From Microcella alkalica (GTDB lineage: Bacteria > Actinomycetota > Actinomycetes > Actinomycetales > Microbacteriaceae): a DNA stretch of 64,000 bases. The notes beneath the pieces were generated by a model. The model was not told the origin of the DNA and ran no database searches. It saw only the letters and a list, made by a program, of their open reading frames with translations. Below, piece after piece: positions 26,420-28,865 of this stretch. The stretch lies in NCBI RefSeq assembly GCF_014595885.1, contig NZ_JABUKC010000001.1, positions 558,001-622,000 of the forward strand. Reading direction: 5' to 3'. Position 1 is the first letter of the stretch. Each line of letters begins with the position of its first letter. The position numbers and the translations under genes were made by a program.

Positions 26420-26784
26420 AGCTGCGCCAGGTCGCCCAGCGCGCCGTCGATCTCGATCGCGCGATCGCCTTCTACCGCACCGTGCTCGGGCAGGGGCCGA
26501 TCGCCCGCTTCGATCCGCCCGGTCTGGCCTTCTTCGACCTCGACGGCACGCGGCTGCTGCTCGACGTGAACGCGCCGAGCTCGCTCGTCTACCTCGAGGT
26601 CGACGACGTGCCGACCGCGATCGCGCGCCTGCGTACCCTCGGCGTCGAGGTCGACACCGAGCCGCACGTCGTCTTCACCGACCCCGACGGCGTCTTCGAC
26701 GCGCCCGGCGACGAGTGGCTGGCGTTCGTGCGCGACTCCGAGGGCAACCTCCTCGGCCTCATGAGCCGACGCACGACGGGCTGA
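26416..26784 (+). CDS. VOC-family protein
   Basis: 122 aa from GTG overlapping the DUF2461 stop. RAVDLDRAIAFYRTVLGQGP and WLAFVRDSEGNLLGLMSRR mark the two halves of a VOC domain. The last 196 bp lie on top of the 3' end of the convergent EamA gene. Reaction unknown. Confidence 0.8.
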   Translation: MKLRQVAQRAVDLDRAIAFYRTVLGQGPIARFDPPGLAFFDLDGTRLLLDVNAPSSLVYLEVDDVPTAIARLRTLGVEVDTEPHVVFTDPDGVFDAPGDEWLAFVRDSEGNLLGLMSRRTTG

Positions 26785-27629
26785 CCGAGCGCGATTCCGA
26801 CGAGCACCGTCACCATGCCGAGCAGCTGCGGCGCGGTGAACGACTCGCCCGCGATGAGGGCTCCGAGCACGACGCCCGTGACGGGGTTGAGCAGGCCGAT
26901 GAGCCCCACCGAGCCCGCGGGCAGTCGCTGCAGCGCGCTGAACCAGGCGACCCAGGCGAGCGCGGTGGCGATGAGGGTGATGTAGGCCTGCCCGGCCCAG
27001 CCGGCGGCATCGAGCGCCGGGGGAGCGCCTTCGACGAGCACGGCCACGGGCGCGAGCGCGAGGCCGCCGGCGGTGAGCTGCCACGCCGTCATCGAGCGCG
27101 GCGGCACCCCGCCGCCCCAGCGCTTGGCGAGCACGAAGCCGATCGACGACATGAGCATGGCCGCGAGCGAGGCCGCGACCCCGCCCAGGTCGACGGCGGT
27201 CGCGCCGCTGGAGAGCATGACGACGACGCCGACGAAGCCGAGCACGGCGCCCGTGAGCGACAGCACGTGGGGCCGCTCGGCGAGCAGCGGCCAGGCGAGC
27301 AGCATCATGACCGCGGGCGAGACGGCCATGAGCATCGCGGCGAGGCTCGAGGGCAGCAGCTGCGCGGCGAGGTAGATGAGCACGAAGAAGGCTCCGACGT
27401 TGAGCACGCCGAGAACGAGCGAGCGCCACCACCAGGGGCCGGTCGGCAGGCGACGCGCTCCGCGCGCGACGGGTAGCGCGAGCAGCAGCAGGCCCGCGGG
27501 CAGGGCGCGCAGCACCGCACCCCACAGCGGGGTCTCGGGCGGCAGCAGCTCGGCCGTCACGAGGTAGGTCGAGCCCCACGCCACGGGCGCGATCGCTGCG
27601 ACGAGCATCCATCGCCAGATGTTTTCCAT
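26589..27629 (-). CDS. EamA/DMT-family transporter with antisense-encoded tail
   Basis: 346 aa. Ten membrane helices in two EamA repeats end near residue ~290 (VGIALGQPVVRRLM). The frame then stays open ~55 codons through the complement of the VOC gene, giving a Ser/Thr/Arg-rich tail unlike the family. The start is ATG in ATGGAAAAC, which forms part of the palindrome TTCCATGGAA. It diverges from a MarR gene that probably represses it, so it may be a drug or metabolite exporter. Confidence 0.83.
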   Translation of the reverse strand: MENIWRWMLVAAIAPVAWGSTYLVTAELLPPETPLWGAVLRALPAGLLLLALPVARGARRLPTGPWWWRSLVLGVLNVGAFFVLIYLAAQLLPSSLAAMLMAVSPAVMMLLAWPLLAERPHVLSLTGAVLGFVGVVVMLSSGATAVDLGGVAASLAAMLMSSIGFVLAKRWGGGVPPRSMTAWQLTAGGLALAPVAVLVEGAPPALDAAGWAGQAYITLIATALAWVAWFSALQRLPAGSVGLIGLLNPVTGVVLGALIAGESFTAPQLLGMVTVLVGIALGQPVVRRLMRPRRLPSESRTNASHSSPGASKTPSGSVKTTCGSVSTSTPRVRRRAIAVGTSSTSR

Positions 27630-27669
27630 GGAAGAGATAATGTCTTCCACGGAAGGTAATATTCCCGAC
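27624..27669. promoter_or_regulatory. Two MarR-type palindromes between divergent leaderless genes
   Basis: TTCCATGGAA (27624-27633, perfect) and TTCCACGGAA (27645-27654, one mismatched pair) are 21 bp apart centre to centre, so on the same helix face. The first covers the EamA start codon and the second overlaps both -10 regions (TTATCT on minus, TAATAT 27657-27662 on plus, 7 nt before the marR ATG). This is the expected layout for autoregulation by the MarR protein. Confidence 0.7.
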
Positions 27670-28182
27670 ATGGTCGACGACGACGGCACGGCGCCCGATA
27701 GGGTCGCGCGCATCCAGCAGGAGTGGCGGCGCGAGCGCCCCGACCTCGACCCCTCGCCGCAGGGCGTCTTCGGCCGCCTCGCCCGACTGCACGGCCACCT
27801 GAGCGAGCAGCTCGCGATCGTCTTCCGCGCCCACGGGCTCACCGAGGGCGAGTTCGACGTGCTCGCCGCCCTGCGTCGCGCCGGCGACCCCTTCGAGCGC
27901 ACGCCGAGCGAGCTCGCGGCGAGCGTCATGATCTCCAGCGGAGGGCTCACCAAGCGTGTCGACCGGCTCGAGGCCGCCGGGCTCGTCGCGCGACGACCGC
28001 ACGAGGGCGACGGGCGCAGCCGCGTGGTGGCGCTCACCGCCGCCGGGCGAGACCTCGTCGACCGCGCGTTCGAGGCGCACCTGGCGAACGAGCATCGGCT
28101 GCTGGCCGCGCTCGAGGAGGGCGATCGACACGCCCTCGAGGGCATCCTCACGCGCTGGTTGCGGGCCAGCGGCGAGGAGTGA
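27670..28182 (+). CDS. MarR-family regulator
   Basis: 170 aa winged-helix dimer. The recognition region is TPSELAASVMISSGGLTKRVDRLEAAGLV and the wing RRPHEGDGRSRVVALTAAG. The ATG 7 nt after TAATAT is chosen over an upstream in-frame ATG at 27619. It most likely represses itself and the divergent EamA transporter through the two palindromes in the 40-bp gap. Confidence 0.9.
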   Translation: MVDDDGTAPDRVARIQQEWRRERPDLDPSPQGVFGRLARLHGHLSEQLAIVFRAHGLTEGEFDVLAALRRAGDPFERTPSELAASVMISSGGLTKRVDRLEAAGLVARRPHEGDGRSRVVALTAAGRDLVDRAFEAHLANEHRLLAALEEGDRHALEGILTRWLRASGEE

Positions 28183-28271: not shown

Positions 28272-28865
28272 GTGCTCCTCGAGACCCACGTGCTGCAAGA
28301 CACCGACCCCGACCTCGATCGGCTGCTCGTCGACGGCTTCGCGGTCGTCGGCGAGTCGTGGGGCGCCGAGCTGCGGCTCGACTCGGTCGCGCAGGTCGAC
28401 GAAGCGGTGGATGCCCTGCGCGAGCGCGTCGCCGCCGCCGAGCAGGCGGGGCTAGCCGTGCGCGAGCTGCACCCCGCCGACGCCGCCGCGATCGCCGCGC
28501 TCGACGCCGCGAGCTGGGCCGACGTGCCCTCCACGCCCGCGACGACGCACAGCCCCACGACCGAGGCAGAGGCCCGCGCGTGGGCCGGCCGCGGCCGGCG
28601 CGGCTTCGGCGCCTTCGACGGCGACCGGCTCGTCGGCCTGTGCGTCGGCGCGGGCGGCGACAACGATTTCATCGTCGTCGCGGCGACCCATCGCGGCCGG
28701 GGGCTCGGTGCGGCCGTCGTGGCGGCGTGGATGCTCGCGGCCATCGAGGCGGGCGAGCGCGCGTTCACGGTCGGCGGCGCCGCCGAGAACGTCCGCAGCC
28801 TCGCGCTCGTGCGCAGCGTGGGCTTCCGCGTGACCGAGCGCTGGCTGAGCCTGCAGCGGCCCTGA
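28272..28865 (+). CDS. GNAT-family N-acetyltransferase
   Basis: 197 aa from GTG, 7 nt after TAGTCT (28259-28264). The acetyl-CoA loop is ATHRGRGLGAAVVAAWM, followed by GGAAENVRSLALVRSVGFRV. The first ~65 residues are a less conserved helical segment. Acceptor unknown. Confidence 0.82.
   Translation: MLLETHVLQDTDPDLDRLLVDGFAVVGESWGAELRLDSVAQVDEAVDALRERVAAAEQAGLAVRELHPADAAAIAALDAASWADVPSTPATTHSPTTEAEARAWAGRGRRGFGAFDGDRLVGLCVGAGGDNDFIVVAATHRGRGLGAAVVAAWMLAAIEAGERAFTVGGAAENVRSLALVRSVGFRVTERWLSLQRP

Follow-up and report, generated by a model that had tools for sequence, protein, structure and literature searches.

Two genes point away from each other in this stretch of DNA, one for a MarR-family regulator and one for an EamA-family transporter, and the question raised by the locus is how the very short interval between them is used: what may bind there, where the two transcripts may begin, and to which signal the regulator may answer. 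The window analysed here is the whole stretch of 64,000 nucleotides. We read the locus as a PecS/PecM-like autorepressed divergon that is compact, probably leaderless, and has an operator doubling as the start codon of the EamA gene. We give this reading a probability of about 0.78. The features on which it is built are as follows.

26589..27629, minus strand: EamA-family (drug/metabolite type) transporter gene, start 27629, stop 26589; open reading frame with a PF00892 match (7.7e-42) on 26721-27629
27624..27633, no strand assigned: O1, putative operator TTCCATGGAA, with the EamA start codon as its centre; the pair occurs in 86/94 orthologous loci
27637..27642, minus strand (27642-27637): likely EamA -10 box CATTAT, between the palindromes, ending 7 nt before the ATG
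27645..27654, no strand assigned: O2, putative operator TTCCACGGAA, between the two -10-like boxes
27657..27662, plus strand: likely MarR -10 box TAATAT, just past the O2 core, ending 7 nt before ATG 27670
27670..28182, plus strand: MarR-family regulator of PecS/MftR/HucR type by sequence and model, 170 aa; PF12802 match (1.1e-15) and matches to PDB chains 8ylf and 8ylh

A divergent gene pair and two palindromes

Translation of the minus strand from 27629 gives an EamA-family protein beginning MENIWRWMLV, which also matches NCBIfam TIGR00950 at 2.3e-47, yet under the cut-off of that family. The MarR start, ATG 27670, lies inside an open reading frame spanning 27619-28182, and this choice of start agrees with the homologues. 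The earlier note had described a 40-base divergent MarR/EamA gap with two palindromes 21 bp apart, one of them including the EamA start codon, and this description holds in each part. The start codons at 27629 (minus) and 27670 (plus) leave 27630-27669, or 40 bp, between them; the palindromes at 27624-27633 and 27645-27654 are 21 bp apart from start to start; and ATG 27629 forms the centre of O1, so that the gap contains all of O2 and part of O1. An ATG in the MarR frame at 27628 shares its CATG with the EamA start on the opposite strand. Downstream of the MarR gene, on the same strand, is a GNAT acetyltransferase gene (28272-28862).

Chance was rejected as the origin of the palindromes, based on shuffles of the window, the count in the genome and shuffled orthologous regions. 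The pattern TTCCRYGGAA has two copies in the 64-kb window where shuffles predict 0.06, and 1 of 100 shuffles reached two; the 2.49-Mb genome holds it in three places, namely O1, O2 and one other. In the orthologous regions, 20 x 110 = 2200 shuffled trials gave no pair with at most two mismatches in all; these were mononucleotide shuffles, which keep base content and not dinucleotide content, and minus-strand loci were not turned round in this test. When one mismatch is allowed, TTCCNNGGAA is not enriched in the 64-kb window (6 found, 6.71 expected). The third genomic TTCCRYGGAA (L003:1501-1510, G000:C2:488580-488589) spans what is likely to be the secG start, GTG-GAA, directly after tpiA, and is probably a chance occurrence. 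We likewise rejected the idea of a broad regulon: in the window genome CTTCCNNGGAAG with one mismatch is found in 12 places, O1 and O2 included, compared with 53 for a reversed-pattern control, so no further site of this form stands out.

Conservation of the pair and the start codon within it

Relatives were gathered through the MarR protein and not through the DNA motif. The best 80 of 181 loci were combined with loci L084-L101, added from 60 further related genomes at a MarR identity of at least 57%. Four of these (L085, L086, L087 and L090) were taken to be the same contigs as L004, L005, L008 and L010 and were left out, giving 94 distinct orthologous loci that include the window's own (L084) and have MarR identities of 57-72%. 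Leifsonia, Microbacterium, Cellulomonas, Sanguibacter, Streptomyces, Kribbella, Herbidospora, Nakamurella, Nocardioides and Amycolatopsis are among the genera represented. All 94 collected loci have a divergent EamA match, upstream on the opposite strand, and all 94 carry an exact TTCCNNGGAA between 150 nt upstream of the MarR start and 20 nt past it. Base content at 71% G+C predicts about 0.001 such site per stretch, a value that is probably low because the gap is richer in A+T.

The O1-O2 pair, defined by a spacing of 18-24 bp and at most two mismatches per site, was called in 87 loci. One call (L099) was removed as spurious, as two runs gave differing pairs there and neither lay at the start codon, leaving 86 of the 94. 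Spacing among the 87 is 21 bp in 74, 22 in seven, 20 in five and 23 in one, and both sites are exact in 70. Within the 86 paired loci, 84 have an exact O1 and 72 an exact O2; among those with 21-bp spacing, nine of the imperfect O2 copies carry A in place of the first C. Each of the eight pairless loci, L099 included, has one exact TTCCNNGGAA. Seven are orthologues that lack a pair altogether (L008, L010, L043, L088, L089, L094 and L096), six of them in genomes listed under the window's own genus, and L099 retains one exact site beside a degraded O1; O1 is thus dispensable in some lineages. In several of the seven the remaining site takes the form CTTTCCGTGGAAAG, and their EamA proteins begin M-T or M-H. 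A strict form of the paired pattern, searched in 396 genomes of the phylum, occurs in two places in two genomes, both at this MarR/EamA gene pair; it is a poor gauge of spread, because even the window, where O1 is preceded by T, is missed by it.

Several loci depart from the simple arrangement. The Austwickia locus has three such palindromes in series upstream of the MarR gene, and the Homoserinimonas locus has several extra ones in that position, some degenerate. One record titled Planococcus sp. APC 4015 carries O2 in the form TTACCGGGAA, as in Microbacterium loci, and its title or contig may be misassigned. A plasmid collection has 206 records with a relative of the MarR protein (E 1e-20 or better). 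Identity lies at 60-80% in 14, and the ten plasmid matches listed all come from Streptomyces.

The centre of O1 is where the two sites differ most clearly. Across the 86 pairs it reads AT in 75 and AC in 11, corresponding to an EamA ATG or GTG, whereas O2 has 15 different dinucleotides at its centre and AT or AC in 18. With one locus taken per 80%-identity cluster (38 clusters, 34 paired), AT or AC is found at O1 in 34/34 and at O2 in 7/34 (Fisher p 1.6e-12). In 84/86 the O1 start codon lies in the EamA frame no more than 10 codons from the window's Met1, and in 67/86 it coincides with Met1; the exceptions are L063, with an EamA match in another frame than O1, and L083, where the alignment places Met1 one codon further upstream. 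O2 hence acts as an internal control: the coding site holds RTG at its centre and the non-coding site does not. These loci form a large and clean natural series in which a putative repressor operator and a start codon occupy the same bases.

The second EamA codon is GAA (Glu) in all 86 paired loci, a choice nearly dictated by the operator motif. Residue 2 is Thr in six and His in one of the seven pairless orthologues, so Glu2 tends to accompany the operator; counting against a strict rule, L099 keeps GTG and Glu2 with a degraded O1. Since the loose centre of the palindrome accepts both CATG and its GTG form, one word could serve as operator, transcription start, start codon and codon 2. In the titles and abstract openings of the open-licence papers listed we found no description of this operator or of a start codon within a PecS-type operator. 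A letter search of the literature gave, among the matches listed, the 12-mer in a Bermudagrass paper (PMC6784090).

Putative promoters and probably leaderless transcripts

The 74 loci with 21-bp spacing yield the consensus TAnCTTCCAYGGAAGnnAnTATAnCTTCCNNGGAAGnTATnnT, in which the outer bases are less fixed at O1. The window departs from it in the outer bases of O1 and at the left edge of O2, with TGTT for TAnC and TG for TA. In the family consensus both -10 boxes begin with one of the outer TA pairs of O2; the left pair in the window is TG, and the window EamA box, CATTAT, is without the first T of TANNNT. Across the family, TANNNT stands 7 nt from the EamA start in 69/86 loci, and 6 nt (50 loci) or 7 nt (15 loci) from the MarR start in 65/85, where the first in-frame start was taken and L064 had no MarR start under this rule.

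Boxes that end 7 nt before each start suggest leaderless transcripts, and from this spacing both mRNAs are probably leaderless. TANNNT is weak evidence by itself: the pattern also accommodates the operator half-site TAnCTT, and it turns up 23 nt ahead of the EamA start in 73/86 loci and 2 nt ahead in 31. The 74-locus consensus shows no evident -35 box. A sigma-70 consensus scan that requires a -35 box reported neither CATTAT nor TAATAT in the window gap. Near the EamA starts of the six same-genus pairless orthologues, no clear EamA -10 box is visible by eye. A loose Shine-Dalgarno-like word is present in 19/86 EamA upstream stretches; the absence of such words was left out of the evidence, because operator letters can themselves yield one. 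The earlier note had placed two leaderless promoters inside the gap. Of this claim, the -10-like boxes do lie inside the gap and their spacing is kept across loci; against it, the scan missed both boxes and the window's EamA box is not a TANNNT.

An MarR transcript with a leader is the alternative that survives best, and we regard it as improbable while still worth weighing. It could arise from the plus-strand GATAAT at 27636-27641, with a leader of about 20 nt, or through an upstream start at ATG 27619, 27628 or 27640. GATAAT, with TCGCCA 18 bp ahead, is the sole site that the scan reported, and the MarR open reading frame extends upstream to 27619. In addition, the nearly invariant columns 13 and 17 in the alignment of pairs would fit a plus-strand box equally well. 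Counter to this, TANNNT precedes the first in-frame MarR start by 6-7 nt in the 65/85 loci given above, conservation among 36 aligned homologues starts only at about residue 9-10 counted from 27670, and columns 13 and 17 are already accounted for by the EamA box. The reading frame is open across both palindromes and contains the three in-frame ATGs named here. We keep the leaderless reading for both genes and, given the box counts, the overlap with the half-site and the outcome of the scan, consider it safer for EamA than for MarR.

The regulator with its probable operator and likely ligand

By sequence and by model, the regulator is a MarR protein of the PecS/MftR/HucR type. It exceeds the cut-offs of two MarR domain profiles (PF12802, 58 bits against 27; PF01047, 41.2 against 24.6), and its closest solved structures by sequence are 8ylf (MftR, 5.4e-39) and 8ylh (PecS, 2.8e-34). 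An AlphaFold2 model (mean pLDDT 90.6, recognition helix at 90-102) matches MftR bound to operator DNA with Z 19.4 and 1.6 Å over 160 residues at 47% identity. P. atrosepticum PecS, with Z 19.1 and 42% identity, is tied with MftR by the rule of the tool, and HucR follows among other MarR proteins (Z 16.1, about 32% identity). W19, D63, R96 and R108 of the window protein align with W20, D73, R106 and R118 of HucR, and are invariant in 94/94 collected orthologues and 12/12 paralogues. We take these four HucR residues to be markers of the urate-responsive PecS/MftR/HucR group. Several PecS proteins, that of S. coelicolor among them, are described as binding urate, with xanthine as a further ligand of the A. 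fabrum and V. vulnificus proteins (PMC6391409, PMC12288460).

The earlier note had proposed drug sensing. In that account an antibiotic is the ligand of a MarR/EamA efflux switch and the pump exports it, which we now consider unlikely. The transporter's weak NCBIfam matches, all under cut-off, include the exporters YedA and YddG, and Agrobacterium PecM may modestly aid chloramphenicol export; both points favour efflux. The regulator, however, is closest to MftR and PecS and then to HucR, and these nearest characterised relatives are described as answering the purines urate or xanthine. The invariance of the HucR-type residues points the same way. By analogy with the family, urate or xanthine is therefore a likelier ligand than a drug.

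The strongest indication that the palindromes are bound by the MarR protein itself comes from paralogues. The set comprises 42 loci (L102-L113 and L120-L149), 41 of them distinct as L109 and L132 are one place; 30 of them are those for which a longer list gave loci. Residue 95, in the recognition helix, is Lys in 94/94 collected orthologues; in the 42 listed paralogue loci it is Asn in 38, His in two, Gln in one and Lys in one. TTCCNNGGAA is found upstream of none of these 42, and exact TTGANNTCAA is found in 20, all with Asn95; the other 22 have neither in exact form. Conversely, TTGANNTCAA is absent from all 94 orthologous regions. The motif is thus exchanged together with a change in the recognition helix. 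Residue 95 alone is not shown to be decisive, because the groups differ elsewhere too and a distant homologue with Lys95 (L105, 48% identity) has no TTCCNNGGAA. The aligned position is Asn in MftR and His in PecS. Only one of the 42 listed paralogue loci, L104, has an EamA match, and the window genome has a related paralogue copy of its own (G000:C1:500162-500629).

That the palindromes serve another regulator, with the MarR protein a mere neighbour, is very improbable, since even in distant actinobacteria the motif accompanies the MarR protein, gives way to another in paralogues whose recognition helix differs, and in its strict paired form occurs at this gene pair in both places found in the phylum. 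Conservation and the change of motif in paralogues strongly support the compact divergent switch that the earlier note had read from the sequence, in which one of the two palindromic operators is also coding. More tentatively, and with slightly less than even odds, this may be an actinobacterial PecS-type branch that has placed an operator on the pump start codon and changed specificity relative to its sister group, with Lys for Asn95 and CTTCC for CTTGA. This amounts to a one-residue, two-base hypothesis for operator change among PecS-type regulators. It also predicts the operator and target pump of this regulator across many actinobacteria.

From the sequence, its conservation, the change of motif with the recognition helix, and the family as assigned by sequence and model, we infer binding, transcription starts, repression and ligand as follows. 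MarR dimers would occupy the same face of the DNA at the two TAnCTTCCNNGGAAGnTA sites, whose spacing is two helical turns. A dimer on O2, between the divergent -10 boxes, would block both promoters, and one dimer could suffice because, in the family consensus, each box opens with a TA pair from the edge of O2. A dimer on O1 would cover the EamA transcription and translation start, O1 also being upstream in the MarR promoter. As the mRNAs are probably leaderless, O1 would in addition provide the first two codons of EamA, the start codon and GAA (Glu). A small ligand, by family most likely urate or xanthine, would release the repressor and induce both genes.

The arrangement resembles the PecS/PecM divergons of Dickeya, Agrobacterium, Pectobacterium, Vibrio and Streptomyces coelicolor, which likewise have a PecS-type MarR gene divergent from a pump gene and sites between the two. 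The S. coelicolor pair is SCO2647/SCO2646. In these systems PecS is described as repressing pecS and the divergent pump gene from sites between them (PMC6391409, PMC12288460). The half-site here is CTTCC, compared with TTTCTTGAT in one V. vulnificus PecS site. A test for the V. vulnificus-like half-site TCTTGA, which may not hold for every PecS, gave 0/94 for its form TTGANNTCAA and 94/94 for TTCCNNGGAA, and we call the locus a variant of PecS/PecM because its half-site is not the PecS-type one examined in this test. D. dadantii PecS sites are described as having no distinct palindrome. Site spacing is 21 bp here and 57 bp in the Vibrio PecS/PecM system, and start codons are 40 bp apart here and 96 bp apart in that of A. 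fabrum. Unlike PecS/PecM, one site here holds the pump start codon and both genes look leaderless in sequence.

Other MarR systems share single aspects of the locus (passages of PMC6391409, PMC12288460, PMC3737563, PMC6036246, PMC5401885 and PMC5487221). MftR of Burkholderia thailandensis, the top structural match, is urate-responsive and has Asn where the window protein has Lys95. HucR of Deinococcus radiodurans matches in the four residues, has a divergent gene as well, and loses DNA binding on urate; it differs in that the divergent gene is a uricase, the site is single and identity is about 32%. Among actinobacterial MarR proteins, SCO3205, SAV4189 and CrtR likewise have palindromic sites at their own promoters, with other operators (TTnAAnnnTCAA, TTGCCYKHRSCAA and TTAA) and other targets; these passages describe no operator around a start codon for any of them. 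SCO3205 and CrtR adjoin divergent targets, as here, and crtR is reported to be leaderless, whereas sav_4189 has a 22-nt leader, unlike the proposed leaderless genes of this locus.
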